A stretch of 64,000 nucleotides of DNA, taken from contig NZ_JTAN02000019.1 of the NCBI RefSeq assembly GCF_000949135.2, positions 62,001 through 126,000 on the forward strand, in the 5' to 3' direction. Numbering within the stretch: the stretch's first letter is position 1; each line of letters starts with the position of its first letter. A program made the translations under genes and the position numbers. Below the pieces are notes generated by a model. The model saw only the letters and a list, made by a program, of their open reading frames with translations, ran no database searches and was not told the origin of the DNA. Positions 1,424 to 48,824 of the stretch are shown piece by piece. The stretch is from Burkholderia sp. USMB20 (GTDB lineage: Bacteria; Pseudomonadota; Gammaproteobacteria; Burkholderiales; Burkholderiaceae).

Positions 1424-1439
1424 TGGCACGGTTTTCGCT
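1424..1439 (+). promoter_or_regulatory. Sigma-54 promoter of the glycan operon
   Basis: TGGCACGGTTTTCGCT. The -24 element TGGCACG is a perfect consensus, GG and GC are 10 bases apart, and -12 is TCGCT (one change from TTGCT). The predicted transcript start is near 1450, giving a ~59-base leader before the SDR start at 1509. Confidence 0.75.
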
Positions 1440-1455
1440 GTACCTCTGTACGACG

Positions 1456-1469
1456 TTTGTCACGACAAA
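1456..1469. promoter_or_regulatory. Inverted repeat TTTGTC-AC-GACAAA in the leader
   Basis: This is a perfect 6+6 inverted repeat just downstream of the sigma-54 promoter. The 10-mer CGTTTGTCAC that contains its left arm (1454-1463) recurs at 10137-10146, in front of the response-regulator EBP. It could be a regulator site shared by the two transcription units. Confidence 0.35.
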
Positions 1470-1508
1470 TGTCATCGCCGCGATCTTTCGGACGCTTGCA
1501 GGAGGTGC

Positions 1509-2261
1509 ATGTTGAACCCGACTCACGATCCAGCCCGACCGTTGTTGGCCGGTCGCACCGCGCTCGTGACGGGCGGCGGTCGCGGCCTGGGCGAGGCCAT
1601 CTGCGAGGAACTGGCGCAACACGGCGCACACGTGATCGTTGCCGATCTCGACGGCGATCGCGCGGCGGCCGTCGCGCAGCGCCTCGAGCGGCATGGCGGC
1701 CGCGCGGTCGGACGGCCGCTCGACGTGCGCGACGAGGCGTCGGTGCTGCAGGTCATGCACGACGCGCGCGAGGCGCTCGGCGACGTCGACGTGATCGTCA
1801 ACAACGCGGCGATCGACGTGACCGCGCCGATCGACGACGTCAGCGTCGCCGCCTGGCAGCAGGTGATGATGACCAACCTGTTCGGCCCGTACCTGATGTG
1901 CCACGCGGCCGTGCCGATGATGAAGGCCCGCGGCAGCGGCCACATCGTCAACATCGCGTCGACCGCATCGAAGCGCGCATGGCCGAATGCGTCCGCGTAT
2001 CACGCGACGAAGTGGGGGCTGCTCGGGTTGTCGCATGCGCTGCATGCGGAGCTTCGGCCGGCCGGCGTGAGCGTGTCGGCGATCGTCGCGGGCGGGATGC
2101 GCACGCCGTTCCTGCTCGATCGCTTCCCCGACATCGACGTGGACACGCTGCAGCCGCCGGAACACGTCGCGGCCGCCGTGCGTTTCGTGCTGACGCAGCC
2201 GCCGGGCACCGTCGTGCCGGAACTGATGGTGCTGCCGATGAAGGAGACGTCATGGCCGTGA
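1509..2261 (+). CDS. Short-chain dehydrogenase/reductase (SDR), 250 aa, first gene of the glycan operon
   Basis: A classical SDR. It has the NAD(P) glycine motif TGGGRGLG near residue 20, NNAA near residue 98, the catalytic Ser in NIAST, and the YHATK active site (Tyr/Lys). The start at 1509 has a strong AGGAGG 6 bases upstream and sits 70 bases after the -12 element of a sigma-54 promoter. The end overlaps the next gene by 10 bases. In this setting (phosphatase, heptosyltransferase-like enzymes, carbamoyltransferase) it may reduce or oxidise a sugar or nucleotide-sugar intermediate, but the sequence alone does not give the substrate. Confidence 0.85.
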   Translation: MLNPTHDPARPLLAGRTALVTGGGRGLGEAICEELAQHGAHVIVADLDGDRAAAVAQRLERHGGRAVGRPLDVRDEASVLQVMHDAREALGDVDVIVNNAAIDVTAPIDDVSVAAWQQVMMTNLFGPYLMCHAAVPMMKARGSGHIVNIASTASKRAWPNASAYHATKWGLLGLSHALHAELRPAGVSVSAIVAGGMRTPFLLDRFPDIDVDTLQPPEHVAAAVRFVLTQPPGTVVPELMVLPMKETSWP

Positions 2262-2863
2262 GTCGCGCGCGACGGTTGCCCGGCGCGGTGCTGCTCGACA
2301 AGGACGGCACGCTGCTGGAGGACCTGCCGTACAACGTCGACCCCGCGCGGATGCAGCTTGCGCCGGGCGCCGCGCGCGCATTGCGCACGCTCGGCGCGAC
2401 GGGCATGCCGATCGCGGTCGTGTCGAACCAGCCGGGCGTCGCGCTCGGCTACTTTGCCGAATCGAAGCTTGGCGCGGTCCGTCAGCGTCTCGCCGAATTG
2501 TTCGAAGCGAACGGCGCGGTGCTGGCGGACTTTTTTTATTGCCCGCATCACCCGGCGGGCAGCGTGCCGCGCTACACCTGCGACTGCATCTGCCGCAAGC
2601 CGCGCCCGGGGATGGTGCGCCGCGCGATCGCCACGCTCGGCGCGGTCGCCGAATGGAGCTGGATGATCGGCGACATTCTCGACGACGTCGAGGCCGGCCG
2701 CGCCGCGCGCTGCGGCACGATACTCGTCGACCGCGGCAACGAGACGCAATGGCGGCTCGATGCCGCGCGCACGCCGCACCATGTGGTCGACCGGCTCGAC
2801 CTCGCCGCCGACCTCGTCGCGCGCGAGGCCGTGCGCCGCCACGGCTCGTGGGTGCGGCGATGA
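2252..2863 (+). CDS. HAD-IIIA phosphatase, GmhB-like (heptose 1,7-bisphosphate 7-phosphatase family)
   Basis: A 203-residue protein of the HAD superfamily, class IIIA. The nucleophile/acid pair lies in LLDKDGTLL near residue 16; the VSNQPG motif II, the CICRKPRPGM motif with its zinc-site-type cysteines (CPHH...CDCIC), and the IGDILDDVEAG acidic motif follow. GmhB removes the 7-phosphate from D-glycero-D-manno-heptose bisphosphate on the way to ADP- or GDP-heptose. The presence of two GT9 heptosyltransferase-type genes downstream fits that role. It lies inside an overlapping operon (10-base overlap before, ATGA overlap after). A housekeeping gmhB would be expected elsewhere, so this copy is probably dedicated to the local glycan. 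Confidence 0.85.
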   Translation: MAVSRARRLPGAVLLDKDGTLLEDLPYNVDPARMQLAPGAARALRTLGATGMPIAVVSNQPGVALGYFAESKLGAVRQRLAELFEANGAVLADFFYCPHHPAGSVPRYTCDCICRKPRPGMVRRAIATLGAVAEWSWMIGDILDDVEAGRAARCGTILVDRGNETQWRLDAARTPHHVVDRLDLAADLVAREAVRRHGSWVRR

Positions 2864-8855: not shown

Positions 8856-9932
<1,077 letters not shown>

Positions 9933-10280: not shown

Positions 10281-11648
10281 ATGCCTTATGTCCTGATCGT
10301 CGAAGACGACGCCGATACGCGAACGATGCTCGCGACCCTCGCGCAAGCGCAGCAGCTTGCATGCGACACGGCCGCGACGCTCGAAGAAGCGCGCACGCTC
10401 GTCTCGACGCACACTCCCGATCTCGTGTTGTGCGATCTCGTGCTGCCGGACGGCAACGGCATGGATCTGTTCGACGCGTTGCCGAAGCGCGCGCATTGCG
10501 AAATGGTGCTGACCACCGGTCACGCGAGCCTCGAAACCGCGATCGACGCATTGCGGCGCGGCGCGACCGACTATCTGGTGAAGCCGATCAACATGCAGCG
10601 GCTGAACAGCATCTTCGCGCGCGTGCCGCGCACCACCGCACTGCATGAGGAAATCGCCGAACTGCGCTCCGAACTGAAGCGTCTCGGCCGCTTCGGCCGG
10701 ATGCTCGGCAGCTCGCCCGCGATGCAGGCCGTCTACGATGCGATCGGCCGCGTCGCGCGCACCGAGGCGTCGGTGCTGCTCACCGGCGAGTCGGGCACCG
10801 GCAAGGAACTCGCCGCGCAGACGGTGCACGACCTGAGCCTGCGCCGCCGCGGCCCGTTCCTCGCGGTGAACTGCGGCGCGATTGCCGCGAATCTCGTCGA
10901 GAGCGAGATGTTCGGCCACGACCGCGGCAGCTTCACCGGCGCCGAGCGGCAGCACAAGGGCTTCTTCGAACGCGCGGACGGCGGCACGCTGTTCCTCGAC
11001 GAAATCACCGAGATGCCGGTCGAATCGCAGGTCAAGCTGCTGCGCGTGCTGGAAACCGGGCGGCTCACGCGGCTCGGCTCGACGCGCGAGATCGACGTCG
11101 ACGTGCGCATCGTCGCGGCGACCAACCGCGATCCGGAAGCCGCGATGGCCGACGGCAAGCTGCGGCCCGACCTCTATCACCGGATCAACGTGTTCCCGAT
11201 TCCGCTGCCGTCGCTGAGCGAGCGCGGCGACGACATCCCGATGCTCGCCGACGCGTTCCTGCAGCACTACAACGAGGAAAGCGGCCGCAATCTGCGCTTT
11301 GCGCCCGCCGCGCGCGAAGCGCTGAAGTCCTACGCATGGCCCGGCAACGTACGCGAGCTGCGCAACTTCGTGCAGCGCGCGAGCATCTTCGCCGACGCGG
11401 ACGTGATCGACACGCTGCCGCCGCCGATCATGGACGAACTGTCGAACATGGTCGACGCGCACGAGGATCGCGTGACGGTGCCGTTCGGCACGCCGCTCGA
11501 GGAAGTCGACCGCAAGCTGATTCTCGGCACGATCGCGAAATGCGGCGGCGTGAAGGCGCAGGCGGCCGAAGTGCTGGACGTGAGCCTGAAGACGATCTAC
11601 AACCGGCTCGCGCAACTGGAAGACGAAGCGGAAAAACCGGACTCCTGA
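10281..11648 (+). CDS. NtrC-family response regulator (sigma-54 enhancer-binding protein), 455 aa
   Basis: The start has AGGAG at 10271. Residues 1-120 form a receiver: acidic pair VEDD (9-10), phospho-acceptor Asp52 in LCDLVLPDG, TTGHA and Lys101 in YLVKP. The AAA+ domain follows, with Walker A GESGTGKE at 169-176, the sigma-54 loop GSFTGA at 216-221, TLFLDE as Walker B, and a C-terminal Fis-type HTH (AAEVLDVSLKTIYNRLAQ). Phosphorylation should drive oligomer assembly and open-complex formation at sigma-54 promoters. The two hybrid kinases in this window are candidate phosphate sources, and the sigma-54 elements listed here are its candidate targets. It is divergent from the receiver-less EBP. 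Confidence 0.92.
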   Translation: MPYVLIVEDDADTRTMLATLAQAQQLACDTAATLEEARTLVSTHTPDLVLCDLVLPDGNGMDLFDALPKRAHCEMVLTTGHASLETAIDALRRGATDYLVKPINMQRLNSIFARVPRTTALHEEIAELRSELKRLGRFGRMLGSSPAMQAVYDAIGRVARTEASVLLTGESGTGKELAAQTVHDLSLRRRGPFLAVNCGAIAANLVESEMFGHDRGSFTGAERQHKGFFERADGGTLFLDEITEMPVESQVKLLRVLETGRLTRLGSTREIDVDVRIVAATNRDPEAAMADGKLRPDLYHRINVFPIPLPSLSERGDDIPMLADAFLQHYNEESGRNLRFAPAAREALKSYAWPGNVRELRNFVQRASIFADADVIDTLPPPIMDELSNMVDAHEDRVTVPFGTPLEEVDRKLILGTIAKCGGVKAQAAEVLDVSLKTIYNRLAQLEDEAEKPDS

Positions 11649-13310: not shown

Positions 13311-13326
13311 AGCAGGTGACGTGCCC
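13311..13326 (-). promoter_or_regulatory. Sigma-54 promoter of the PIG-L/GT2 pair
   Basis: On the minus strand: GGGCACGTCACCTGCT. It has GGCACG at -24 and CTGCT at -12, with correct spacing. The predicted start is near 13300, 25 bases before the PIG-L start codon. Confidence 0.7.
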
Positions 13327-13378: not shown

Positions 13379-15685
13379 ATGTTTGAATTTGCGCGGCCGC
13401 AGGTCGGAAATTACGCAACCGCCGTGATGTTCGTCGCGATCGCCACCGTGCTGCAGGCGCTGGCGATCCGCTTCGGCGGCGTGAACCTGTCGCTGATCCT
13501 GTACTACCCGATGCTGGCCGGCGCGGCCTGGGTGACGTCGTTCCTGTTCGGGATCGTGTCGACCGTGGTCAGCGGGCTGCTGATCTGGACGCTGTTCCTG
13601 TCCGATCCGGCCGCGTACACCGGGCCGCTGTCGGCCCGGCTCGTGCAGCTCTTCGTCTTCCTGCTGGTCGGCATGCTGGTCTGCGCGGGCGCGGCGATGC
13701 TGCACCACGCGCGGCTCACGAACGACGTCGCGCGCCGGCGTGACGCGGCCGCGCGGCGGCAGCTCGAAGCCGTGCTGCAGTCGCTGCCGCACGGTGTGAT
13801 CGCGACCGACGGGAAAGGCCGGGTGACTTACCTGAATGCGGTGGCGGCCGAGCTGGCAGGCTGCGGCGTGGACGAGGCGACGGGCCGGCCCGTGCGCGAC
13901 GTGCTGCGCCTGTTCGATCACGACGGCCGGCGCGTGCAGGCGACGCCGCTCGAGCGGGCGCTCGGCGGCGCGCATGCGTTGTCCGACCGGCACTGGCTGC
14001 ACGGCGCCGCCGGCAGCACGCCGGTGCCGATCGCCGAGGCGGCGGCGCCGATCGCCGATGCGGACGGCAACATCGACGGCGCGGTGCTGCTGTTCTGCGA
14101 TGCCGGCGTGGCGCGCGCGCGCGCCGACAAGTCGCGGCTGCAGCTCGCGGTCGTCGAGGCATCGCCGGACGCGATCGTCGGCGTCGACGGCGAGGGCCGC
14201 ATCGTCAGCTGGAACCCGGCCGCGCAGCGGATCTTCGGGTACGACGAGTCCGAGGCCTACGGGCGCCCGTTCGAATCGCTCGTCGCGATGCGCTGGCTGC
14301 AGCGCAATCCGTTGGCCGAAACGTTCGACGCGATGCGCGAACCGGTCGGCCCGCTCGAACTGCTGTGCGTGCGCCGCGACGGCCGGCGCTTTCGCGCAAC
14401 GGTATCCGCATGCCCGGTGCGCGGCGACCTGCGCGCCAGCGTCGCGCTGTCGCTGACGCTGCGCGAGACCGGCGCGCAGCGCCGCCGCGACCTGCGCGCG
14501 CACCGCTCGCTGCAGGGCGCGCGCGACGCGCGCGACCAGGCCGATACGTCGAACCGCCTGAAGGACGAATTGCTCGCGACCGTGTCGCACGAACTGCGCA
14601 CGCCGCTGAACGTGATCTACGGCTGGGTCGAGGTGCTGCGCAATTCGCGCGAAGACGGATTGCAGCAGCAGGCGATCGACGCGATCGATCGCAGCGCGCG
14701 TTCGCTCACGCGCATGGTCGGCGACATCCTCGACGCATCGTCGCTCGCGACCGGCAAGCTGCGGATCGATTCGATGCCGGTGGACGTGGTGCGGCTGTTC
14801 GCCGATGCGACGGGCACGTTCCAGACGGCCGCGTCGTCGGCCGGCATCGCGCTCGAATTCGACTGCGCCACGTCCGCATGCGTGGTGTCGGGCGACGCGG
14901 AGCGCTTGCGGCAGATGCTGTCGAACCTCGTGTCGAACGCGCTGAAATTCACGCCGGCCGGCGGCGCGGTGACGGTCACGCTGTCGCGCGACGCCGGGCA
15001 CGCGATGCTGACCGTCGCCGATACCGGGCAAGGCATCGCGCCGGATTTCATCCCGTACGTGTTCGACATGTTCCGCCGCGCGGAAGAGTCGCCTGCCTCG
15101 TCGCGGCGCGGGCTCGGGCTCGGCCTGTCGATCGTGCGGCATATCGCCGAGCTGCACGGCGGCACGGTCAGCGTCGCAAGCCCGGGCCGCAATCGCGGCG
15201 CCACGTTCACCGTGACGTTGCCGGCCGGCTGGCAGCCGGCGGGGGCGATGGCGTGGAGCGTCACGCCGGACGACGTCGCGCGCGGTACGCCGATGCTCGA
15301 GTCGCAGCGCATCCTGATCGTCGACGACGACCCGACCACGCGTGCGAGCCTGACCGCCGCGCTGGCAACGCTCGGTGCGGTCGTCGCGGTCGCGTCGTCG
15401 GGCCGTGACGCGCTCGCCATCGTCGCGGAGGTGAAGCCGACCGTCGTGCTGTCCGATCTGGCGATGTCCGACGGCGACGGCTTCTGGCTGCTCGATGCAT
15501 TGCGCCGCGGCGGCGCGAACGGCGGCAGCCCGCCCAACCTGCGCGTGCTCGCGGTCACCGCGCATGCGGGCCTCGGCGACGAACGCCGCGCGCTCGAGGC
15601 GGGCTTCGACGGCTATCTGTGCAAGCCGGTCGACGTGCGCGAGCTGGCCCGCCGGATCGCGCGCGTGACGACGCGCGACGGGTGA
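13379..15685 (+). CDS. Membrane hybrid histidine kinase (DUF4118-type, 2 PAS, HisKA, HATPase, receiver), 768 aa
   Basis: The start has AGGAGGG 8 bases upstream. Residues ~12-110 hold four hydrophobic segments of the KdpD-like DUF4118 type. Two PAS domains follow (~125-240 and ~250-370, the second with IVGVDGEGRIVSWNPAAQRIFGY). Then come HisKA with SHELRTPLN, the ATPase with N-box NLVSNALKF, DTGQGI and GLGLGLSIVRHI, and a C-terminal receiver with VDDDP, LSDLAMSDGDG, TAHA and LCKP. It probably senses an internal or membrane signal and could feed phosphate to the NtrC-type regulator upstream. It is divergent from the PIG-L gene. Confidence 0.92.
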   Translation: MFEFARPQVGNYATAVMFVAIATVLQALAIRFGGVNLSLILYYPMLAGAAWVTSFLFGIVSTVVSGLLIWTLFLSDPAAYTGPLSARLVQLFVFLLVGMLVCAGAAMLHHARLTNDVARRRDAAARRQLEAVLQSLPHGVIATDGKGRVTYLNAVAAELAGCGVDEATGRPVRDVLRLFDHDGRRVQATPLERALGGAHALSDRHWLHGAAGSTPVPIAEAAAPIADADGNIDGAVLLFCDAGVARARADKSRLQLAVVEASPDAIVGVDGEGRIVSWNPAAQRIFGYDESEAYGRPFESLVAMRWLQRNPLAETFDAMREPVGPLELLCVRRDGRRFRATVSACPVRGDLRASVALSLTLRETGAQRRRDLRAHRSLQGARDARDQADTSNRLKDELLATVSHELRTPLNVIYGWVEVLRNSREDGLQQQAIDAIDRSARSLTRMVGDILDASSLATGKLRIDSMPVDVVRLFADATGTFQTAASSAGIALEFDCATSACVVSGDAERLRQMLSNLVSNALKFTPAGGAVTVTLSRDAGHAMLTVADTGQGIAPDFIPYVFDMFRRAEESPASSRRGLGLGLSIVRHIAELHGGTVSVASPGRNRGATFTVTLPAGWQPAGAMAWSVTPDDVARGTPMLESQRILIVDDDPTTRASLTAALATLGAVVAVASSGRDALAIVAEVKPTVVLSDLAMSDGDGFWLLDALRRGGANGGSPPNLRVLAVTAHAGLGDERRALEAGFDGYLCKPVDVRELARRIARVTTRDG

Positions 15686-18118: not shown

Positions 18119-18295
18119 GGTATTGCTCCCGAGGTCGGGGCCGCGCCGGCGAGCCCCGTTGCGTCCCTCTTCGGCAATCGCCATGCCCGTCACTTTGCGG
18201 GCGGCACGCCCGGCCCAGGTGCCGAAAAAATTACAACGGGTTGGATGAAAGGGCGTCCGATCGGCGGGCCGCGCGGGGATGCGGGCGGTTGCGCG

Positions 18296-18311
18296 CGGCA
18301 CGCGATTTGCG
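18296..18311 (+). promoter_or_regulatory. Sigma-54 promoter of the BON-domain gene
   Basis: CGGCACGCGATTTGCG. It has GGCACG at -24, TTTGC at -12 and exact spacing. The predicted start near 18322 leaves a 38-base leader to the start codon at 18360. Confidence 0.72.
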
Positions 18312-20886: not shown

Positions 20887-20902
20887 CGGCATGCCGCTTG
20901 CG
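20887..20902 (+). promoter_or_regulatory. Sigma-54 promoter of the stress SDR
   Basis: CGGCATGCCGCTTGCG. GGCA and TTGC are correctly spaced. It is nearly identical to the element in front of the uracil-DNA glycosylase gene (CGGCATGCCGGTTGCT). The predicted leader is about 23 bases. Confidence 0.6.
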
Positions 20903-25213: not shown

Positions 25214-25538
25214 GCCAATCCTCCGGTGCAGGCCGACGCCGCGCGCGCGAAGCGGCATGCTCGGGCGCGCGCGACAAGCCGATCGAAGGCGTTGCCGGGG
25301 CGGAACATCGGCAGTGTGTGCATCGGCGGCTCCCGTATCGACGATATCGACGAGATGCAGCAACCGGCATGCCGCGTGCGGTCGCGATGGACGCGTCGTG
25401 TGTCGGAGCCGCATCCGGTGATGGCGGGGGACAGGGGGTCCAAGCAGCCCCCGGCGATGCTCCAGCCGCCTTGCACGGTACGACTTGCAAAACGGCATCG
25501 AGCGGCCCGGAGCGGCCTAGAGCGCCGTCGTGCGGTGC
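25214..25538. other. Upstream region of the uracil-DNA glycosylase gene
   Basis: No gene is seen in these 325 bases. It holds one sigma-54 element on the minus strand at 25359-25374. The remainder up to the MFS gene end is featureless GC-rich sequence with a C/G-rich patch (gggggacagggggtcc). Confidence 0.5.
25359..25374 (-). promoter_or_regulatory. Sigma-54 promoter of the UdgX/Nramp unit
   Basis: On the minus strand: CGGCATGCCGGTTGCT, with GGCA at -24, TTGCT at -12 and correct spacing. The predicted leader is about 135 bases, longer than for the other sites. Confidence 0.55.
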
Positions 25539-34050: not shown

Positions 34051-34066
34051 AGCAAGCGGCGTGCCG
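34051..34066 (-). promoter_or_regulatory. Sigma-54 promoter of the CBS/PRC unit
   Basis: On the minus strand: CGGCACGCCGCTTGCT, with GGCACG and TTGCT at exact spacing. The predicted start is near 34040, a ~64-base leader. Confidence 0.75.
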
Positions 34067-34387: not shown

Positions 34388-34403
34388 CGCAACGGCCGTG
34401 CCT
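34388..34403 (-). promoter_or_regulatory. Sigma-54 promoter (minus) for the 83-aa gene
   Basis: On the minus strand: AGGCACGGCCGTTGCG. GGCACG and TTGC are correctly spaced; the leader is about 28 bases. It faces away from the plus-strand element 13 bases further on. Confidence 0.72.
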
Positions 34404-34415: not shown

Positions 34416-34431
34416 CGGCACGGGACTTGCC
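34416..34431 (+). promoter_or_regulatory. Sigma-54 promoter (plus) for the 101-aa gene
   Basis: CGGCACGGGACTTGCC. GGCACG and TTGC are at exact spacing. The predicted start near 34442 gives a ~91-base leader to 34533. Confidence 0.72.
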
Positions 34432-34838: not shown

Positions 34839-34848
34839 CGCGCTGCCC

Positions 34849-34968: not shown

Positions 34969-34984
34969 CGGCACGCAGCTTGCG
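34969..34984 (+). promoter_or_regulatory. Sigma-54 promoter of the Pro-rich/103-aa/lipoprotein genes
   Basis: CGGCACGCAGCTTGCG. GGCACG and TTGC are at exact spacing. The predicted start is near 34995, about 70 bases before the first start codon. Confidence 0.72.
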
Positions 34985-36105: not shown

Positions 36106-36300
36106 CCGCGGCACCCTGCACGGATGCCGCGCAACGATCCTGCCTGCGAGGACATATTCGCGCGACGGCGACGGCATATCCGCGCGGAGCGAATGCCGTG
36201 CCCCCTAACTTGCTGGCGCTTGTAAAAAAGGGGGCGCCCGGGGCCGCGGCCGACGGGGTACGAACGCGCGAGAGCCCCGCCGGACGGCGCTTCGCCTCCC

Positions 36301-36316
36301 TGGCACGGTAGCTGCA
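36301..36316 (+). promoter_or_regulatory. Sigma-54 promoter of rpoN2
   Basis: TGGCACGGTAGCTGCA. It has a perfect -24 and CTGCA at -12. The predicted start near 36327 leaves a 34-base leader to ATG 36361. The element overlaps an in-frame ATG at 36316, which rules that out as the main start. The region before it (36106-36300) has no gene. Confidence 0.82.
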
Positions 36317-36360: not shown

Positions 36361-37791
36361 ATGTCCGTCACGCTTGCGCTCCAGATGCGACAGCATCTGG
36401 CACTCACGCCGAGGCTTCAGCAGTCGCTTCGCCTGCTGCAGTTGTCTTCGCTCGAATTCCAGCAGGAATTGCGACAGGCGCTCGACTCGAATCCGTTTCT
36501 CGAAGATGGGCAGGGCGACGAAGAAGCCGCCGACGCGCCCGAACCCGAGGCCGAAGCCGCGCCGCCCGAGCCGCCACCCGAGCACGAGGAAGTGCGCCCG
36601 CCGGACGGCGACGTGTCGTACACGGCCGCGCCGACGACGCGAGGCACCGGGCGACAGGCCGACGACGCGGGCGACCAGTCGCCCGGCGAGTGGATGGCCG
36701 CCGAGCCGTCGCTGCACCAGCAGCTGCACGACGCGTTGCGGCTCTATCCGCTGAACCGGCGCGACCGCGAGGCCGCGCGCATCGTGATCGACGCGCTCGA
36801 CGAAGACGGCTACCTGCGTCAGGAGCTGGGCGAGCTGCTGATCGCGGCCGATCCGGCGCGGCTGCTGTCGGAACAGGATCTCACGGTCGCGCTACGGCTC
36901 GTGCAGATGCTGGACCGGCCGGGCATCGCCGCGCGCTCGCTGTCCGAATGCCTGCTGCTGCAGCTCAACGCGATTCCGGCCGGCACGCCGGCGCTCGCGG
37001 AAGCGAAGGCCATCGCGCGCGACCATCTCGAACGGCTCGCGCGCCGCGAGACGGCGGAGATCCAGCGGCGCCTCGGCTGCAATCAGGCGACGATGCAGGC
37101 CGCCTGCGCGCTGGTGCGCGCGCTCGATCCGCGCCCCGGCAATCACTACGGCAGCACGCGCGGCGACTACGTGATACCCGACGTGATCGTGCGTCAGGTG
37201 CGCGACGAATGGATCGTGACGATCAACCCGGCCGTGCTGCCGCGCGCGCGGCTGCACGAGCGCTACGCGACGCTGTTCGCGCAGTCGAGCGGCGAGCGCG
37301 ATTCGCCGCTGGGCCAGCAGCTGCAGGAAGCGCGCTGGCTGATCCGCAACGTGCAGAAGCGCTTCGACACGATCCAGCGGGTCGGCGAATGCATCGTCGC
37401 CCGGCAGCGCGACTTCTTCCGCTACGGCGAGATCGCGATGAAGCCGCTCGTGCTGCGCGACATCGCCGAGGAGCTCGACCTGCACGAATCGACGGTCTCG
37501 CGCGCGACGGGCAACAAGTACATGGCCACGCCGCACGGCACGTTCGAGTTCAAGCATTTCTTCCCGCGCAAGCTTGAGGCGGCCGGCAAGGGCGTGTGCT
37601 CGGCGTCCGCCGCGAAGGTGCTGATCCGCGACATGATCGCCGCCGAGCGCCATAACGATCCGCTGTCCGACGTCGCGCTCGCGCAGAACCTCGCGGGCCG
37701 CGGCATCCTTCTTGCGCGTCGTACCGTCACGAAGTATCGCCAGGCGATGAAGATTCCGCCGGCCGACCTGCGCCGGCGCGACGCCGCATGA
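36361..37791 (+). CDS. rpoN2: RNA polymerase sigma-54 factor, second copy, 476 aa
   Basis: Region I (residues ~1-50) is Gln/Leu-rich (LALQMRQHLALTPRLQQSLRLLQLSSLEFQQEL), the activator-responsive part. An acidic Pro/Glu linker (~55-120) is region II. The core-binding region follows, and region III ends with the DNA-binding HTH (DIAEELDLHESTVSRATGNKYM) and the RpoN box ARRTVTKYRQ near residue 461, which reads the -24 GG. All parts needed for activity are present, so it is expected to be functional. The start 36361 has CAGGAGGG upstream. A near-perfect sigma-54 promoter lies directly in front, predicting autogenous control. A housekeeping rpoN is assumed elsewhere. Confidence 0.93.
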   Translation: MSVTLALQMRQHLALTPRLQQSLRLLQLSSLEFQQELRQALDSNPFLEDGQGDEEAADAPEPEAEAAPPEPPPEHEEVRPPDGDVSYTAAPTTRGTGRQADDAGDQSPGEWMAAEPSLHQQLHDALRLYPLNRRDREAARIVIDALDEDGYLRQELGELLIAADPARLLSEQDLTVALRLVQMLDRPGIAARSLSECLLLQLNAIPAGTPALAEAKAIARDHLERLARRETAEIQRRLGCNQATMQAACALVRALDPRPGNHYGSTRGDYVIPDVIVRQVRDEWIVTINPAVLPRARLHERYATLFAQSSGERDSPLGQQLQEARWLIRNVQKRFDTIQRVGECIVARQRDFFRYGEIAMKPLVLRDIAEELDLHESTVSRATGNKYMATPHGTFEFKHFFPRKLEAAGKGVCSASAAKVLIRDMIAAERHNDPLSDVALAQNLAGRGILLARRTVTKYRQAMKIPPADLRRRDAA

Positions 37792-38653: not shown

Positions 38654-38777
38654 CCGACGCAACCCGCATCGACGCTTTAGCCGCCGTCGCGACACGCGCC
38701 GTGCGGCGCGTCCATGCCCGTGACGGCTTCTGGTGTGTGCCGCCACGCGCTCGCGCACCCGGCAAAGGAGAACACGC

Positions 38778-39830: not shown

Positions 39831-39854
39831 CGCGCGGCGACGCGAGGTGACACG

Positions 39855-42845: not shown

Positions 42846-42853
42846 CCGCGCCG

Positions 42854-44176
42854 TCAGCGCCGACGCTGCTGCAGGCGGTGATACCAGTCCATCAGCGGCG
42901 TCGCGGACACGCCGTGCGCGATCACCGACGCCGACACGACGGCCAGCACCGGCGCCGCGAGCGGCCGCACCGCGCTGGACGGCCCGTGCTCGAGCGCGAA
43001 CAGCAGGTAGTAGAACGAGCCGATCCCGCGTATCCCGAACCATGCCAGCAGCCGGCGCTGCGCCGGCGTCGCGCGCGAGCCGGCGAGCGCCGGCAGCACC
43101 GCGAGCGGCCGCACGGCGACGAACAGCGCGACGGCGAGCGCGGCCGAGCCCCACGTGAAGAGCGGCGTCGTCAGCGTGGCGAGCACGCCGCCGATCATCG
43201 TCATCACGAGCGCCTCGGCGATCCGCTCGAGCTCGATCGTGAAGTCGAGCACCGATTCGGTCATGAACGCGTGCGCTTTCTCCGGGTGTTTCTCGGTCGC
43301 GACCACGTCTTCCGAATCGACCCGGCCGATCACTTCGCGCGGCCGGCGGTCACCGCTCGCGCGATGCTCGACGCGGCGCATCGCGACGCCCGCGGCGAAC
43401 GTCGCGATGAAGCCGAACGTATGCGCGAGCTGCGCGGCACCGAACGACAGCACGATCAACGCGAGCGCGAAGAAGCCTTCGAACCCGAGTGCCTGCGCAT
43501 GACGGGTGCGCAGCCAGCCGATCGCGGTGGTGGTCGCCGCGCCGAGCATGCCGCCGATCGCGGCCGCGCCCGCGATGCCCCACAGCGCGGCCAGCGCGAA
43601 CGCGCCCGACAGCGGCGGCGGCCCGTGCGGCGCATCGGACGCGCCGCACAGCGCGAGGCCCGCGAGCGCGAACGGCAGCGCGATGCCGTCGTTCAGGCCG
43701 CCTTCGCCGGACAGTGCGAAGCGCACCAGGTCGCGATCGCCGGGATCATGCACCTGCACGTCGTGCGCGAGCACCGGGTCGGTCGGCGCGAGGATCGCCG
43801 CGAGCAGTAGCGCGGGGCCCCAGCCGAGCCCGAGCGTCAGGACCGCGCAGCCGGCGAGCAGCGGCACCGTGACGATCATCGCGAGCAGGCCGAGCCGGCA
43901 CGGCACGCGCCACAGCGGGTCGGACAGCGGCACGCGCAGCCGCAGCCCGATCGCGAACAGCGATACCAGCAGCGCGACCTCGACGATCTCGCGCAGCAGC
44001 GGCGCGTCGCGCTGGATGTCGAGATGCAGGAGCCCGGCGCCGGACGGGCCGAGCGCGACACCGAGAGCAAGATAGATCATCGCGCTGCTGCACGGCAGAT
44101 GGCGCAGCGCCGACGTCACGATGCCCATGCCCATCAGCACCGCGCCGATGATCAGATACCACAACGTTTCATGCAT
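42854..44176 (-). CDS. Cation:proton antiporter (Na+/H+ exchanger family), 440 aa
   Basis: It has about 12 helices, the conserved APTDPVLAHDV segment near residue 130, and the ND pair in GEGGLNDGIALP near residue 160, which marks electroneutral CPA1-type exchangers. A charged cytoplasmic loop (~290-330: RRPREVIGRVDSEDVVATEKHP in part) interrupts the fold. The end has YYLLFALEHG. It probably moves Na+ or K+ against H+ for pH and salt balance. It is convergent with ligD (8 bases apart). The DUF3175 gene lies upstream on the same strand, 42 bases away. Confidence 0.87.
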   Translation of the reverse strand: MHETLWYLIIGAVLMGMGIVTSALRHLPCSSAMIYLALGVALGPSGAGLLHLDIQRDAPLLREIVEVALLVSLFAIGLRLRVPLSDPLWRVPCRLGLLAMIVTVPLLAGCAVLTLGLGWGPALLLAAILAPTDPVLAHDVQVHDPGDRDLVRFALSGEGGLNDGIALPFALAGLALCGASDAPHGPPPLSGAFALAALWGIAGAAAIGGMLGAATTTAIGWLRTRHAQALGFEGFFALALIVLSFGAAQLAHTFGFIATFAAGVAMRRVEHRASGDRRPREVIGRVDSEDVVATEKHPEKAHAFMTESVLDFTIELERIAEALVMTMIGGVLATLTTPLFTWGSAALAVALFVAVRPLAVLPALAGSRATPAQRRLLAWFGIRGIGSFYYLLFALEHGPSSAVRPLAAPVLAVVSASVIAHGVSATPLMDWYHRLQQRRR

Positions 44177-44218
44177 GCGGGCAGGCCGGGCAGGTCGACG
44201 GTGAACCGGCGGGGGCCG

Positions 44219-44575
44219 TCACGGCTTGCGGCCGAACGCCTCGCGCAGTTTGCGCTTCGCACGTTCGAGCGTCGCGCGGCGCGTCTTCGGCAGGTTGCGG
44301 CCCGCGCGGTTCACGTAGAAGTTCAGCATCGACATCGCCGACTGGAACGGTGTTCCCTTGCGTCGGCGGCTGTGTTCGGCCGAGCGCTTGAGCGACGCGG
44401 CGATCTTGCCCGGGTCGTCGGACTTGAAGATCTCGGGCTCGATGTCGAGCGCATCGCTTCGTTGCATGACGTCGGCGGACCAGCGCTTGCGGTGCTGCGG
44501 ATCGTTGCTGCGCGCACGGCCCGGGCGGCGCGTCGCGCGTTTGCCGTGCGGATGGGAAGCTGAAGCTGAAGGCAT
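44219..44575 (-). CDS. DUF3175 protein, 118 aa
   Basis: The core KRWSADVMQRSDALDIEP, IAASLKRSAEHSRRRKGTPF and MSMLNFYVNRAGRNL are the family signature; the N-terminus is a basic tail with HTH-like charge. A small soluble helical protein of unknown role. A strong sigma-54 element lies 60-75 bases upstream on the same strand, and the antiporter gene follows, so both are probably controlled together. Confidence 0.88.
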   Translation of the reverse strand: MPSASASHPHGKRATRRPGRARSNDPQHRKRWSADVMQRSDALDIEPEIFKSDDPGKIAASLKRSAEHSRRRKGTPFQSAMSMLNFYVNRAGRNLPKTRRATLERAKRKLREAFGRKP

Positions 44576-44634
44576 GGCAGGGCTCTCCCTATGGAATCGG
44601 GATGGATCGCGGGTCTTGGGTGTCCGGGTGGTGC

Positions 44635-44650
44635 CGCAATTCGCGTGCCG
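44635..44650 (-). promoter_or_regulatory. Sigma-54 promoter (minus) of DUF3175/antiporter
   Basis: On the minus strand: CGGCACGCGAATTGCG, with GGCACG and TTGC at exact spacing. The leader is about 49 bases. It faces away from the plus-strand element 12 bases on. Confidence 0.75.
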
Positions 44651-44661
44651 CCTGTCGGTGG

Positions 44662-44677
44662 CGGCACGGGCCTTGCT
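44662..44677 (+). promoter_or_regulatory. Sigma-54 promoter (plus) of the Gly-rich protein gene
   Basis: CGGCACGGGCCTTGCT. GGCACG and TTGCT are at exact spacing. The predicted start near 44688 gives a ~45-base leader. Confidence 0.75.
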
Positions 44678-44732
44678 GAATCGAAGGCGCAGGCCATTCC
44701 ACTACGGCGGTTCCATTGAGGGAGAGCGCTCC

Positions 44733-45290
44733 ATGAAGCCAGCATCCGAATCGAAATCTGCCGCGCGCCGGATCCTCGCGTGCGCGGCCGTCGTGCTCGT
44801 CGCGGCCGCACCGGCCGCATGGGCACAGAATTCGCAACGTTCCGACGAGGGCACCGGCGCGCCGATCCTGTCGCCGCCGGACACGTCGGCGCAGGGCAGC
44901 GGCGGCAACCTGTCGAACGGCAACACGGCGGCGCCGCCGCCCGCGACCCGTATGCAGGCGCCGCGCGGCACGGGTCCGCGCGGTCAACCGGACGTGCGCA
45001 GCAAGCCCGGCGGCATGACTGGCGCCGGGGCCGGCAGCATGGGCGGCGGCGCGACGGGCGGCACCGGCAGCACCGGAATGGGCAGTACCGGCAGCGGTAC
45101 CGGCAGCACCGGAATGGGCACCCCCGGTACGGGCAGCACCGGTACGAGCGGTGCCGGCGGCAGCGCGGGCATGGGCGGTGCCGGTGCGGCCCCGGGCGGA
45201 ACTGGCGCGGGCGCCGGCAATAGCCGCTTGCCGGGGACGACCGGCTCGGGCGGTGGCAGCACGGGCAGCGCGGGGTCGAGCGGCTATTGA
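44733..45290 (+). CDS. Secreted Gly/Ser/Thr-rich repeat protein, 185 aa
   Basis: The start has GGGAGAG upstream. A signal peptide (RILACAAVVLVAAAPAAWA) cleaves near residue 32. The mature chain is disordered: a Pro-rich part, then about 80 residues of Gly-Ser-Thr-Gly-Met repeats (GSTGMGSTGSGTGSTGMGTP). Such chains are seen in surface or matrix proteins. It has its own sigma-54 promoter. The repeats could be sites for glycosylation, but that is speculation. Confidence 0.8.
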   Translation: MKPASESKSAARRILACAAVVLVAAAPAAWAQNSQRSDEGTGAPILSPPDTSAQGSGGNLSNGNTAAPPPATRMQAPRGTGPRGQPDVRSKPGGMTGAGAGSMGGGATGGTGSTGMGSTGSGTGSTGMGTPGTGSTGTSGAGGSAGMGGAGAAPGGTGAGAGNSRLPGTTGSGGGSTGSAGSSGY

Positions 45291-45378
45291 CGATCACGGC
45301 GTCGCGCCGGCGCCCGGCGCGGCGCGCTGGCGGCGCTACCCGCGAGGCCGGCCTGCCGCCACTACGCAGGAGGACAAC

Positions 45379-45744
45379 ATGCAATCGAATTCCCGGATCT
45401 CGCTCGACGACGATGCGCTGGACGCCGACGCCGCCGAGACCGAGGGTCTCGATACGACGGTTCATGTCGACGTCGCGACCGGCAGGATCATGTTTCATGC
45501 GGCGTGGGCGCTCGCGCCCGATGCGCCGCGCGATACCGCGCGGCACGCGGTCGTGCTCGCGCTCAACTGCGACACGATGGAGCGCTATGCGGACCTCGAC
45601 GAACCCGCGCGGATGCGCGTGCACGCGATGCTGCACGACAGCGTGCAGGCCACGCTCGACGCGCTGCCTGACGTCACCGAGGACCTGACGCTGACGATCG
45701 AGCTGACCGACGCGATGCTCGACGCCGCGCGGCACCTGCAGTGA
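45379..45744 (+). CDS. DUF3022-family protein, 121 aa
   Basis: CAGGAGGACAAC precedes the start. After an acidic N-terminus (DDDALDADAAETEG) comes a domain (TVHVDVATGRIMFHAAWAL, LALNCDTMERYADLDEPARMRVHAML) that matches the paralogue at 38267-38653. No signal peptide or membrane segment. The function is unknown, but two copies in one stress region is notable. Confidence 0.85.
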   Translation: MQSNSRISLDDDALDADAAETEGLDTTVHVDVATGRIMFHAAWALAPDAPRDTARHAVVLALNCDTMERYADLDEPARMRVHAMLHDSVQATLDALPDVTEDLTLTIELTDAMLDAARHLQ

Positions 45745-45850
45745 GCGCGGGGCCGGCACCGGCCGGCGGCGGGTACGGCCCCGCATGCAGGCCGCCGGGC
45801 GGGTGCCTCCGATAGTCGCGGGTATTGCCGGCGTCACGTTACATCCGTCG

Positions 45851-45865
45851 TTGAAATCTTTGCAG
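45851..45865 (+). promoter_or_regulatory. Motif TTGAAANNNTTGCAG, copy 2
   Basis: TTGAAATCTTTGCAG. It lies about 180 bases before the sigma-54 element at 46044. Confidence 0.4.
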
Positions 45866-46043
45866 GCGCCGCGCGGCGCTGTCCAATAGGCGCACGCATC
45901 ACGCCGCGACGCGCATGCGCGCCGCCAACCGCCAACCGCCGATCGCCGATCGCGGGTCGCGCCCCATCAAGGCGGCGCCGCGCCGGCCGCCATCCCGACG
46001 GGCGCGGCACGCCCATTGCTGCGTCGATGGATACAGCAGGGTA

Positions 46044-46059
46044 CGGCACATCCGGTGCC
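46044..46059 (+). promoter_or_regulatory. Sigma-54 element before the PfpI-type gene
   Basis: CGGCACATCCGGTGCC. GGCACA is at -24 and GTGCC at -12, with correct spacing. The leader would be only about 12 bases. Confidence 0.5.
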
Positions 46060-46081
46060 ACAACACGACAGGGAGCGATTC

Positions 46082-46630
46082 ATGATCGGCAAGCTGGATC
46101 ATTGCAAGGTAGCGATACTCGCGGTCGACGGCTTCGAGGAAGCCGAGCTCGTCGAACCGCAGCGGGCACTGACGGCAGAGGGCGCGCAGGTCGACGTGAT
46201 TTCGCAGAAGCGCGGCGAGATCCAGGGGTTCAGGCACGTCGACAAGGGCGATCGCGTAAAGGTCGACCGCACGTTCGACGATGCGCGCGAAGGCGATTAC
46301 GACGCGGTCGTGCTGCCGGGCGGCGTGGTCAACGGCGACGCGATCCGGATGCTGCCGGCCGCGCGCGAATTCGTGACCGCGGCCGTCGGCGCGGGCAAGC
46401 CGATTGCCGCGATCTGTCACGGCGGCTGGCTGCTGGTGTCGTCCGGGCTGGTGGACGGCCGCACGATGACGAGCTGGCCGAGCCTGCAGGACGACATCCG
46501 CAATGCGGGCGGCAAGTGGGTCGACCAGGAGGTCGTGCGCGACGGCAACCTGATCACGAGCCGCAAGCCCGCCGACCTGCCCGCATTCAACGGCGCGCTG
46601 GTGCAGTGCCTCGCGTCGCGGGGGCCCTGA
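46082..46630 (+). CDS. PfpI/DJ-1-family protein (protease/glyoxalase-like), 182 aa
   Basis: The family core: VAILAVDGFEEAELVEP at the N-terminus, VVLPGGVVNGD near residue 80, and the nucleophilic elbow AAICHGGWLL with catalytic Cys near residue 106 and His next to it. Related proteins (YhbO, PfpI, DJ-1) act in oxidative, acid or glycation stress as protease or glyoxal-handling enzymes. A GGGAG precedes the start. It lies 3 bases before the DUF1488 gene and is likely one unit with it. Confidence 0.92.
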   Translation: MIGKLDHCKVAILAVDGFEEAELVEPQRALTAEGAQVDVISQKRGEIQGFRHVDKGDRVKVDRTFDDAREGDYDAVVLPGGVVNGDAIRMLPAAREFVTAAVGAGKPIAAICHGGWLLVSSGLVDGRTMTSWPSLQDDIRNAGGKWVDQEVVRDGNLITSRKPADLPAFNGALVQCLASRGP

Positions 46631-46633
46631 GCG

Positions 46634-46975
46634 ATGCCGGCCGAACCCGTTCGCCACGTGACGCTGACCGACGCGCCGCCCGAGTTCGACGGTGCGGCGC
46701 TGCTGATGCGTTTCGTCGTCGAGGTCGACGGGAAGCCGCAAACCTGCACGATCACGGTCGAAGCGCTCGAGGATCATTTCGGCGCGCGCTCCGCGCTCGA
46801 AGCCGACTTGCGCGACGCGTTCGAGCGCGGCCGCGCGCGCATCGAGGCGGCGTGCGCGGACGTGCTGGTCGACGGCAAGGGCGGCGTGGAACTCCACAGC
46901 GGCTACTTCCGCGTGCGCGACAAGGCGGCGGGCAAAACCGCCCGCGCCGGGATGTTCCGTTCGCGGAAGTCGTGA
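46634..46975 (+). CDS. DUF1488-family protein, 113 aa
   Basis: The pattern FDGAALLMRFVVEVDGKPQTC, CTITVEALEDHFGARSALEADL and FERGRARIEAACADVLV matches DUF1488. The C-terminus is basic. It is a soluble domain of unknown function, commonly found next to stress genes in Burkholderia. It starts 3 bases after the PfpI-type gene. Confidence 0.82.
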   Translation: MPAEPVRHVTLTDAPPEFDGAALLMRFVVEVDGKPQTCTITVEALEDHFGARSALEADLRDAFERGRARIEAACADVLVDGKGGVELHSGYFRVRDKAAGKTARAGMFRSRKS

Positions 46976-47062
46976 GTCGGTGGGGCATGCGGCGCGTGCC
47001 GCTGCCGTGCCGCAGTGCGCCCGTGCCGTTCCATTCGCACCATTGGGCGCCATTACACGCCG

Positions 47063-47077
47063 TTGAAAACTTTGCAG
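47063..47077 (+). promoter_or_regulatory. Motif TTGAAANNNTTGCAG, copy 3
   Basis: TTGAAAACTTTGCAG. It lies 75-90 bases upstream of the sigma-54 promoter at 47152. The flanks (TTACA before, CATCACGCCGCG after) match copy 2. Confidence 0.4.
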
Positions 47078-47151
47078 CGGCCCCCGAGCGCCTTGAAGTG
47101 ACACATCACGCCGCGCGCCGGCCGGGCGCCGGGCCGCTCCGTCCCAGATAC

Positions 47152-47167
47152 TGGCACATTCCCTGCA
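47152..47167 (+). promoter_or_regulatory. Sigma-54 promoter of the 74-aa gene
   Basis: TGGCACATTCCCTGCA. It has TGGCAC at -24 and CTGCA at -12, with exact spacing. The predicted start is near 47178, a leader of about 80 bases. Confidence 0.75.
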
Positions 47168-47257
47168 TGTCTCCTCAGATCGCGGCGCACGATTCGCGCC
47201 TGCGCCGGCGCGATGCCATCGTCGTATCGCGCCAAGCCGTCAAATGGGGGAGACAAC

Positions 47258-47482
47258 ATGCTGACCGCACATGAATTTGCCGCACTATTCCTGGTCCATC
47301 GCGCGCCGGAACAGATCCAGGCCGACCGCGAAGATATCGTCGCGTTGGTGGAACAACACCTGATCGAGATGCGCGCCGACGCATCGGGCGCGAGCCGGCT
47401 CGCCCTGACGCCGGACGGGCTGTCGATCGTGCAGCGCATGCTGCGGCACGCCGGGCGCGGGTTCGGCAGTGCCGACGCGTGA
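47258..47482 (+). CDS. Small helical protein, 74 aa
   Basis: The start has GGGGGAG upstream. The chain is mostly alpha-helical (EFAALFLVHRAPEQIQADRED, VALVEQHLIEMRA) and ends with a short basic helix (LSIVQRMLRHAGRGFG). The pattern suggests a small HTH-like or adaptor protein, but I recognise no family. It has a strong sigma-54 promoter with the repeated upstream motif, so it is likely induced in the same response. Confidence 0.75.
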   Translation: MLTAHEFAALFLVHRAPEQIQADREDIVALVEQHLIEMRADASGASRLALTPDGLSIVQRMLRHAGRGFGSADA

Positions 47483-47498
47483 TGCCGAACCGCGCGGC

Positions 47499-48749
47499 TC
47501 AGTGCGCGATCGCGACCGGTGCGTTGACCTGCACGGCCGGCGTATCGCCGTCGAACGGCGGCGCGCACTGGAAGCGGTCGATCACGCCCGGTTCGAACAG
47601 CAGGCAGCAGGTCGAGCCGCCGTACTGGAAATAGCCGATCTCGTCGCCCTTGTCGATTCGCTGCCCCGGCACGACCTCGATCACGCACGACGACACGTCG
47701 CCCATCCCGACGAACACCGCGGCTACCGTCCCGATCCCCGGGTCGTCGCAGTCGATCGCGACCACCGCGCGCGCGGCGACGGCCGTCATGTAGCCCTGCG
47801 AGTCGTTGAGCCCGGCCGGGTCCGGGCCTTCCGCTTCCGCGACCGAGTAGTAGGTGCCGTCGACCCGGTACGCGTGCGTGACGGTGCCGCGCACCGGCGC
47901 GTGCCAGCGGTGATAGTTGTACGCGCTCAGATACGCCTGGTAGAGGTCGCCGCCGACGAAGCGCTCGGCAAGCGGCAGCCGCGCGGGCGTGAAGATGTCG
48001 CGCAGCGAATACGGCTGCCCCTTGATCCAGAACCTGTCGCGGATCTTCACGCTGGATTCGGTGTGATACGGCGCGGCCTCGCACGCGCTGACGATCACGT
48101 GCGGATCGTCCGGCGCCGCGACCGGCCGCGCACCCGCGCGAAAGCGCCGCGTGAAGAAGTCGTTCCACGAGTCGAAGCCCCAGTGCGGCTGGTCCTCGCG
48201 ATACTGGAACTGCGACAGGCCGACGCGCGTGCGCGCTGCATCGCAGAACCAGCCGTCGGGCGGCGACGTGTCGAGATGCGCGCGCGAATGCGGGCCGCCG
48301 AGGAAGTCGCACCACACGTTCAGCACCTGCTTCAGGTGCGCGTTGACCGCCGCGTCGCGAAACACCGCGTGGCCCGACGGCATGCACATCGGCCAGTCGA
48401 GAAACGCGTTCAGCGGGCACACGACCAGGCTCGTTTCGCTGAACGGCGGCGTGTAGGTCATCAGGTGGTCGATCACGGTCATCAGTTCGCCGATCGATGC
48501 GTAGCCGAGCATGCGGCCCGCTTCGAGCGCCTCGTCGATCGCGCGGGTGAGGCTCATGCGCAGCACCGCGTTGTCGTCGAACAGCCGCGCGAGCGCCTGC
48601 ACGGCCGGCGTGCGCAGCTGTTCGCCGGCCTGCGCGCGCGCTGCGTTCGCAATGTTCGCGCGGTACCCGGCCATCTGCGATTCCTCACGGGCCATCCATT
48701 CGCCGAGACGGTGACGCGTTGCGGGCGGCGTGCTGCGGTCGATCGGCAT
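47499..48749 (-). CDS. Phosphatidylserine decarboxylase-family enzyme with N-terminal PSDC-like domain, 416 aa
   Basis: The N-terminal half (~1-190) is a helical PSDC-like domain (LGEWMAREESQMAGYRAN, LIDHLMTYTPPF-like). The C-terminal half has the PSD core: SWNDFFTRRFRAGARPVA, NYHRWHAPVRGTV and the self-cleavage region QYGGSTCCLLF, where the Ser of GGST becomes the pyruvoyl group. The PSDC-PSD layout is shared with PsiD-type amino-acid decarboxylases, so the substrate may be an amino acid such as tryptophan rather than phosphatidylserine. No membrane segment is seen. A sigma-54 element lies 38-53 bases upstream. Confidence 0.85.
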   Translation of the reverse strand: MPIDRSTPPATRHRLGEWMAREESQMAGYRANIANAARAQAGEQLRTPAVQALARLFDDNAVLRMSLTRAIDEALEAGRMLGYASIGELMTVIDHLMTYTPPFSETSLVVCPLNAFLDWPMCMPSGHAVFRDAAVNAHLKQVLNVWCDFLGGPHSRAHLDTSPPDGWFCDAARTRVGLSQFQYREDQPHWGFDSWNDFFTRRFRAGARPVAAPDDPHVIVSACEAAPYHTESSVKIRDRFWIKGQPYSLRDIFTPARLPLAERFVGGDLYQAYLSAYNYHRWHAPVRGTVTHAYRVDGTYYSVAEAEGPDPAGLNDSQGYMTAVAARAVVAIDCDDPGIGTVAAVFVGMGDVSSCVIEVVPGQRIDKGDEIGYFQYGGSTCCLLFEPGVIDRFQCAPPFDGDTPAVQVNAPVAIAH

Positions 48750-48786
48750 GGTCGGCTCCGGAAAGGGTTGCGGTACGAAACGGGGG

Positions 48787-48802
48787 AGCAAGGCGCTTGC
48801 CC
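48787..48802 (-). promoter_or_regulatory. Sigma-54 promoter (minus) of the decarboxylase gene
   Basis: On the minus strand: GGGCAAGCGCCTTGCT, with GGCA and TTGCT at exact spacing. The leader is about 27 bases. It faces away from the plus-strand element 6 bases on. Confidence 0.65.
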
Positions 48803-48808
48803 GACAGG

Positions 48809-48824
48809 CGGCACCCGAATTGCT
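48809..48824 (+). promoter_or_regulatory. Sigma-54 promoter (plus) of the 83-aa gene
   Basis: CGGCACCCGAATTGCT. GGCAC and TTGCT are at exact spacing. The predicted start near 48835 gives a ~35-base leader. Confidence 0.7.

Follow-up and report, generated by a model that had tools for sequence, protein, structure and literature searches.

The genes around rpoN2, which encodes a second sigma-54 factor in Burkholderia sp. USMB20, are preceded by conserved sites of the sigma-54 promoter type. They lie in a 64,000-nucleotide stretch (contig NZ_JTAN02000019.1, positions 62,001 to 126,000; hereafter the window, to which coordinates refer unless another replicon is named). The sites, their conservation, the promoter in front of rpoN2 itself and the recurrence of rpoN2 with activators and stress-type genes in distant relatives are established by the data presented here. 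We consider it probable that they represent a sigma-54 regulon built around RpoN2 and a divergent pair of activators, driving mostly stress-type and small genes and some surface-glycan genes. Judged by sequence comparison, the promoters are almost certainly real, and it is likely that RpoN2 and the activator pair are what uses them.

A second rpoN and two enhancer-binding proteins (EBPs) had been reported in a first-pass annotation of the window, and their Pfam domains bear this out. The rpoN2 gene (36361..37791, plus strand), the one rpoN present, encodes the three sigma-54 domains (Sigma54_AID, CBD and DBD) and the RpoN box ARRTVTKYRQ, and its product matches a sigma-54 of solved structure (phmmer, 4e-100). 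RpoN2 is a widespread paralogue of sigma-54. The gene was found in 36 of 37 genome sets, and RpoN1, which is 43-46% identical to RpoN2, was present beside it in 8/8 genomes tested. With the window RpoN, a match at E 1e-100 was obtained in 103/150 genomes of the family, a figure which is not a count of RpoN2 because matches of ~45% are RpoN1-like. EBP1 (10281..11648, plus strand) is an NtrC-type response-regulator activator with Response_reg, Sigma54_activat and HTH_8 domains, and EBP2 (8967..9932, minus strand) is a sigma-54 activator without a receiver domain (Sigma54_activat, 1.4e-65, and HTH_8). Both possess the AAA+ domain and a Fis-type helix-turn-helix (HTH), with the loop GSFTGA instead of GAFTGA. 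GSFTGA was found in 30/30 EBP1 loci read, in 21 further EBP2 matches in the same loci and in the window, and likewise in more distant loci. Of the 33 genomes searched, 32 have a match to EBP1 at 62% identity or more. A hybrid PAS histidine kinase (13379..15685, plus strand; DUF4118, PAS, HisKA, HATPase_c and Response_reg) is a candidate sensor for EBP1, a pairing suggested by their neighbourhood.

Evidence for the promoters comes from orthologs of the target genes. These were identified by tblastn in 37 genome sets using the first 100 residues of each protein, with the alignment starting within the first 8 residues and an identity of at least 45%. The 260 bp upstream were then scored with one fixed score, in which GG and GC were obligatory and the threshold was 5; the n of every ortholog count includes the window itself. 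For the 17 target families, a strong sigma-54 site is retained upstream of 243 of the 259 orthologs (226/242 without the window), and dinucleotide shuffles pass in 0-8%. By comparison, a strong site was present in 12/362 upstream regions of 21 control families from the same island, the highest being DUF3022b (5/19) and DUF1488 (3/17). The sites agree with the sigma-54 consensus TGGCACRN4TTGCW, with GG and GC exactly 10 bases apart, although most target promoters depart from its T at -26. The invariance of GG and GC is a consequence of the score demanding them, and the frequencies of 0.85-0.99 for C, A, G and TT are partly due to the threshold. Across the 17 families the spacer is variable, orientation is fixed toward the start codon and leaders measure 29-107 nt, the exception being UdgX (104-211). 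The local sigma-54 regulon proposed from a reading of the DNA is therefore upheld, its sites being conserved and correctly placed and oriented.

Conserved sites precede the BON, CBS, DUF3175/antiporter, PSD-like decarboxylase and glycan genes, so that the stress-type and surface-glycan targets named in the first-pass annotation hold. In the left part of the window, promoters were identified upstream of the glycan operon (SDR gene 1509-2261) at 1424..1439 on the plus strand (TGGCACGGTTTTCGCT; 6/7 orthologs), of a PIG-L deacetylase gene (12568-13275) at 13311..13326 on the minus strand (10/12), of a BON-domain gene (18360-18782) at 18296..18311 on the plus strand (13/13) and of an SDR gene (20936-21793) at 20887..20902 on the plus strand (9/11). 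A further site upstream of a glycosyltransferase gene (16802-18118), at 18173..18188 on the minus strand (GGGCATGGCGATTGCC; 10/12), was absent from the earlier list. Closer to rpoN2 are the sites of a CBS-domain gene (33545-33976) at 34051..34066 on the minus strand (17/20) and of the small genes at 35063-35736 at 34969..34984 on the plus strand (10/10), followed by the rpoN2 promoter at 36301..36316 on the plus strand, with T at -26 (TGGCACGGTAGCTGCA; 37/37). A small gene (47258-47482) has its site at 47152..47167 on the plus strand (17/18).

Six of the sites form three back-to-back pairs. The first serves small genes at 34098-34349 (34388..34403, minus strand; 20/21) and 34533-34838 (34416..34431, plus strand; 21/21). 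The second serves the DUF3175 gene (44219-44575) with a Na/H antiporter (44635..44650, minus strand; 15/15) and a hypothetical gene at 44733-45290 (44662..44677, plus strand; 14/14). The third serves the PSD-like decarboxylase gene, 47499-48749 (48787..48802, minus strand; 12/14), and a small gene at 48870-49121 (48809..48824, plus strand; 8/10). The DJ-1/PfpI gene (46082-46630) had been assigned the site at 46044..46059 (plus strand), which does prove to be a conserved second, weaker element (score of at least 4.8 in 13/15) but not the main one, since a stronger site absent from the earlier list precedes the gene at 46005..46020 on the same strand (CGGCACGCCCATTGCT; some strong site in 15/15). 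As both elements are conserved, the PfpI upstream region is probably tandem.

The claim that DNA-repair genes belong to the targets stands for UdgX (start 25213; 25359..25374, minus strand; 9/9) and fails for Ku (0/18) and LigD (0/17), which have no site of their own. Both follow rpoN2 in the same orientation and might be transcribed from its promoter. The UdgX leader, put earlier at 135 bases, measures 145 nt to an ATG with a Shine-Dalgarno sequence. UdgX itself seems frameshifted (24179-25213 and 24558-24782, minus strand): the UDG-domain match ends at residue 148 in one frame, and the end common to relatives seems to lie in the frame ending at 24558. The B. multivorans UdgX has 219 aa and a fuller domain match.

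The rpoN2 promoter, which passes the score in all 36 genome sets with the gene as well as in the window, stands out in the upstream alignment in the rows examined, Paraburkholderia among them. It differs from most of the others in its -26 base. T was found in 37/37 rpoN2 promoters of the window set and in 13/13 of those from distant loci passing the filter, as against 26/205 other promoters of the window set (the 47258 family supplies half of these) and 12/77 in the distant loci, counts which are not independent because the sequences are related. Over the 17 families the base is C at 0.58, G at 0.20 and T at 0.18, and T is in the majority just in the rpoN2 and 47258 families; the glycan promoter has T in the window and C in 4/6. 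A T at -26 is a preference, not an absolute requirement. Among exact genome-wide matches, C versus T at this position was not clearly different between the island and elsewhere in two genomes, with few counts and coding matches mixed in, and a promoter dialect drawn from these matches was dropped for the same reasons.

The two sigma factors also differ in protein sequence. Residue 10 of the RpoN box (ARRTVAKYRE) is E in 8/8 RpoN1 proteins and Q, H, N, R or G in 28/28 RpoN2 proteins (Q in the window), and the HTH next to the box is of the RATGNKYMATP type in nearly all RpoN2 versus RVTTGKYMLTP in RpoN1. The RpoN box is reported to bind the -24 element (PMC7057263). Residue 10 may be what reads -26.

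The same pattern is repeated in 20 distant rpoN2 loci (47-63% RpoN2 identity, ~10 kb either side), so that stress-type genes with sigma-54 promoters around rpoN2 are not peculiar to the window. In these loci 136 sites were counted, compared with 36 matches to the reversed pattern, with little or no excess in a few (3 vs 1 in L208, 2 vs 1 in L211 and 3 vs 2 in L217), and by eye a T-type site precedes rpoN2 in all 20. An EBP1 homolog (56-62%) is found within ~10 kb of rpoN2 in 13/20 loci; in 11/20 it is accompanied by another, short activator gene facing the other way. The genes behind the sites were viewed in 10 of the 20 loci, with 10 chosen proteins put through Pfam (9 matched); they include DJ-1/PfpI, BON, DUF2383, GT20 (OtsA-type), PEBP, DUF883, PRC, DUF4142 and DUF1328. 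Homologs of window genes near the distant rpoN2 comprised BON (14/20), hyp20242 (13), DUF1488 (12), PfpI (10), DUF4142 (9), DUF3175 (5) and PRC (4).

Two published systems are close to the one described here. The RpoN2 of Ralstonia solanacearum is likewise a second sigma-54 on a second replicon with a sigma-54 promoter before its gene; rpoN2 is no longer expressed there when rpoN1 is mutated, and the role of RpoN2 is called "enigmatic" (PMC4371752). Unlike here, the accessible text gives no phenotype and no proven targets (PMC4371752, PMC4676750). The scan described there allowed one mismatch to TGGCACRN4TTGCW and thus misses sites that deviate twice, for instance by a non-T at -26 together with G at -11. 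The RpoN2 of B. pseudomallei, encoded on the second chromosome, controls the stationary-phase stress catalase katE: the wild type expresses katE at 48-72 h, expression is absent in the rpoN2 mutant and a plasmid copy restores activity (PMC4745423). It differs from the present case in that one gene was closely tested together with a partial proteome, and a dedicated EBP or promoter class does not appear in the accessible part (PMC4745423). In 3/10 genomes searched (G001, G002 and G020; loci L285, L284 and L276), rpoN2 is followed after ~1.1 kb by a long katE-type catalase gene in the same orientation. The window has no catalase at that spot, where the DUF3022-Ku gap of just 136 bp is too small. 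One Paraburkholderia katE has, by reading, a site ~30 nt upstream.

A number of observations weigh against a regulon run by RpoN2 and the EBP pair. Apart from Ku and LigD, a conserved site of their own is absent from EBP1 (0/32), EBP2 (0/23) and the histidine kinase (0/19), and from PRC and DUF4142 in the Burkholderia set; the weaker extra site suggested earlier at 10043, upstream of EBP1, falls with this result and with the lack of GG-N10-GC in 10/10 aligned relatives. No own site was seen in the other katE upstream regions checked, including those of the rpoN2-adjacent catalases and of G011. Linkage is not universal, as EBP1 and rpoN2 are on different contigs in G023 and G024, and the third-replicon region of B. 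stagnalis has no annotated rpoN2. In 5 of the 11 distant loci with a second activator (L203-L209), this gene is at most a candidate EBP2 ortholog, because its EBP2 and EBP1 scores are nearly equal. In P. bannensis (G003), the 35 kb surrounding rpoN2 hold 2 sites versus 2 in the control, preceding BON and rpoN2, and a separate EBP pair has 4 sites versus 1. A full rpoN2 copy in Burkholderia sp. Bp8963 (L029), which was not counted, has C at -26. An enhancer common to all promoters was not found, nor is one seen in the three back-to-back pairs; this sits badly with a regulon driven by EBPs, above all at these pairs. The RpoN2 proteins of Ralstonia (PMC4676750) and B. pseudomallei (PMC4745423) restored an E. 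coli rpoN mutant, and in Ralstonia the mutation of rpoN2 produced no phenotype in the assays made, which covered metabolism and virulence (PMC4676750).

With regard to Bp8963 (L029 and L043), it seemingly has a second, partial rpoN2-like sequence with a T-type promoter on another contig; the copy counted has T.

An alternative to use by RpoN2 is that the sites are genuine sigma-54 promoters read by RpoN1, with RpoN2 a redundant or rarely used copy. RpoN1 was present in all eight genomes tested, the sites match the general consensus if -26 is set aside, and both the silent Ralstonia mutants and the exact genome-wide matches, in which -26 was not clearly different, are in keeping with it. We nevertheless regard it as unlikely, given that T at -26 sets the rpoN2 promoters apart from most others (the uncounted C copy excepted) and that an EBP1 homolog stays near rpoN2 in most of the distant loci. 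It also fits poorly with the requirement of B. pseudomallei katE for RpoN2, and with the inability of Ralstonia RpoN2 to replace RpoN1 for most functions (PMC4676750).

In the preferred reading, in which RpoN2 and the EBPs use these promoters, the nearby PAS kinase would detect a signal and cause EBP1 to be phosphorylated, and RpoN1 polymerase would use the T-type promoter to transcribe rpoN2. EBP1, EBP2 or both would then activate RpoN2 polymerase at the BON, CBS, DUF3175/antiporter, PfpI, PSD, UdgX, small-protein and glycan promoters. More tentatively, and with somewhat less than even confidence, we propose an insulated cascade, in which RpoN1 needs T at -26 and makes RpoN2, while RpoN2, which has lost the RpoN-box glutamate, works with its own GSFTGA activators and also accepts non-T promoters. 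As the E. coli mutant is restored by RpoN2, the protein also reads ordinary promoters, and any specificity it has must be relaxed and not switched. If the cascade is true, the -26 base and the activator loop would insulate a stress regulon from nitrogen and metabolic sigma-54 control, one sigma-54 factor leading to another.

The comparisons supply the enigmatic second rpoN with 17 conserved candidate targets in the Burkholderia set, each a gene or an operon, along with a pair of candidate activators and a candidate sensor. The -26 feature may separate RpoN2 from RpoN1, and the role of RpoN2 becomes directly testable. The OsmY-like BON, OtsA, ElaB-like DUF883, DUF1328 and KatE families are RpoS targets in enteric bacteria. 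In contrast to the RpoS and EcfG general stress responses, the promoters here are of the sigma-54 type, which need an ATP-driven activator. If the tentative cascade reading is correct, the Burkholderiaceae would run a second, general-stress-like response on sigma-54, and functions usually under RpoS or EcfG would have moved to ATP-gated promoters on a third replicon. Rhodobacter sphaeroides has multiple RpoN factors, paralogues specialised by promoter and activator, but these serve flagellar and nif genes and not stress-type genes as here. The megaplasmid RpoNp of Bradyrhizobium DOA9 (PMC13207237) comes from another class of bacteria. Our literature searches, whose coverage left out most subscription papers, found no description of this regulon.

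It is also conceivable that the sites are an inverted-repeat operator, or the site of some other regulator resembling sigma-54 promoters, as the back-to-back pairs (34388/34416, 44635/44662 and 48787/48809) do look like imperfect inverted repeats. When the three pairs were aligned (up to 16 sequences each), both sites and the Shine-Dalgarno sequences were kept and the intervening DNA was not, and the pairs vary in spacing. Together with the GG-N10-GC arrangement, the variable spacer, the fixed orientation to the start codon and the leader lengths given above, this makes such an origin very improbable.

An enrichment of sites had been suspected in the first-pass annotation from intergenic DNA, and counting confirms it. 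GGCA-N6-TTGC has 21 matches in the window versus 2.41 +/- 1.75 in dinucleotide shuffles, and 0/100 shuffles reach 21. The division into intergenic and coding matches rests on our own gene calls: 14 of the 21 are intergenic, in 5,914 bp, compared with a mean of 0.27 and a maximum of 4 in 300 shuffles of intergenic DNA, and the other 7 fall in ~58 kb of coding DNA, a density of 0.12 per kb, giving an intergenic enrichment of ~20-fold. The coding matches at 20944, 26436, 37701, 46393 (both strands), 52686 and 63123 were set aside, as was the intergenic match at 36130 (minus strand), conserved in 0/7. The eleven positions reported as exact matches are indeed exact, but the "fifteen elements" announced correspond to a list of sixteen positions. 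A loose scan of the window allowing 3 mismatches showed no excess (89 vs 116 expected), so the signal sits in the strong sites.

The reference replicon for comparison was the whole of the complete chromosome 3 of Burkholderia sp. MS389 (G001:C3), where the island is inverted relative to the window at ~871-926 kb. The chromosome has 87 exact matches, and the reversed pattern has 43, which are not clustered. Between 856 and 938 kb, where noncoding DNA amounts to 7.4 kb, 17 matches are intergenic (14 preceding a gene) and 4 coding; outside this island, where it amounts to 225 kb, 29 are intergenic (14 preceding a gene) and 37 coding. The intergenic density outside is thus 18-fold lower, a contrast that may be inflated because our home-made gene caller calls just 80% of the replicon as coding, making the noncoding part too large; the ortholog test is unaffected by this weakness. 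The idea that the sites reflect chance in 70% GC DNA and a choice made by reading between genes only, for which the seven coding matches and the loose scan could be cited, retains next to no probability in view of the shuffles and reversed-pattern controls, and is refuted by the ortholog test.

Although no general enhancer emerged, some upstream elements did. When expectation-maximisation was applied to 20 upstream regions, the motif obtained was AT-rich and had a log-likelihood of 88 versus 60-68 in 6 shuffled sets, a contrast that favours the real set because it was searched from 250 start words and the shuffled sets from 120. The motif was rejected as a general enhancer, being strong at some promoters only, and the regular expressions derived for it mainly match the rpoN2, glycan and 47258 upstream regions. 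An IHF site was weighed as a further possibility. An element TTGTAAAAA is located upstream of rpoN2 at 36220..36228 on the plus strand, and TGTAAAAA is present in 35/37 rpoN2 upstream regions, ~80 bp upstream of the promoter, and in 6/6 glycan operon orthologs. It also occurs in 15/90 distant promoter upstream regions versus 0.2 in shuffles. Between this element and the upstream gene, GGGCACGGCATTCGCT at 36188-36203 (minus strand) keeps GG-N10-GC in 11/14 aligned relatives but never TTGC, and may belong to the sequences that control rpoN2 from upstream instead of being a promoter.

Two other EBPs of chromosome 3 have GAFTGA. On chromosome 2 (G001:C2, ~488-496 kb; L259 and L260) a GSFTGA activator occurs together with two divergently oriented sigma-54-like sites and a small proline-rich protein, which resembles ones near rpoN2 in other loci. 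Three such sites are near this EBP, and the whole 40-kb stretch has 4 sites versus 4 in the control.

The window has a GC content of 70% and probably belongs to the third replicon of a Burkholderia cepacia complex strain, to judge from its relatives. RpoN proteins with 79-95% identity to that of the window come from Burkholderia cepacia complex-type genomes, on chromosome 3 in the complete ones, and positions 33000-50000 align with third-replicon or plasmid records of B. cenocepacia, B. multivorans, B. stagnalis and B. pyrrocinia. The third replicon is dispensable and is linked to stress tolerance. The stress island is interrupted at ~25539-32634 by MFS, LysR, dicarboxylate transporter and binding-protein genes, and 28.2-32.8 kb within this block maps elsewhere on MS389 chromosome 3 (741-746 kb). 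A trehalose/glycogen cluster (53548-63989; treY, malQ, treZ, glgX and glgB, named by position in relatives) adjoins the island and has no conserved sigma-54 site in the ortholog upstream regions of treY (1/13) and glgX (0/10). An arsenic-type run at 49303-53007 comprises an ArsR-like HTH protein, two low-molecular-weight-phosphatase-type proteins, an SBF-family transporter and an FMN reductase, and its left end has a 92% match to plasmid records.

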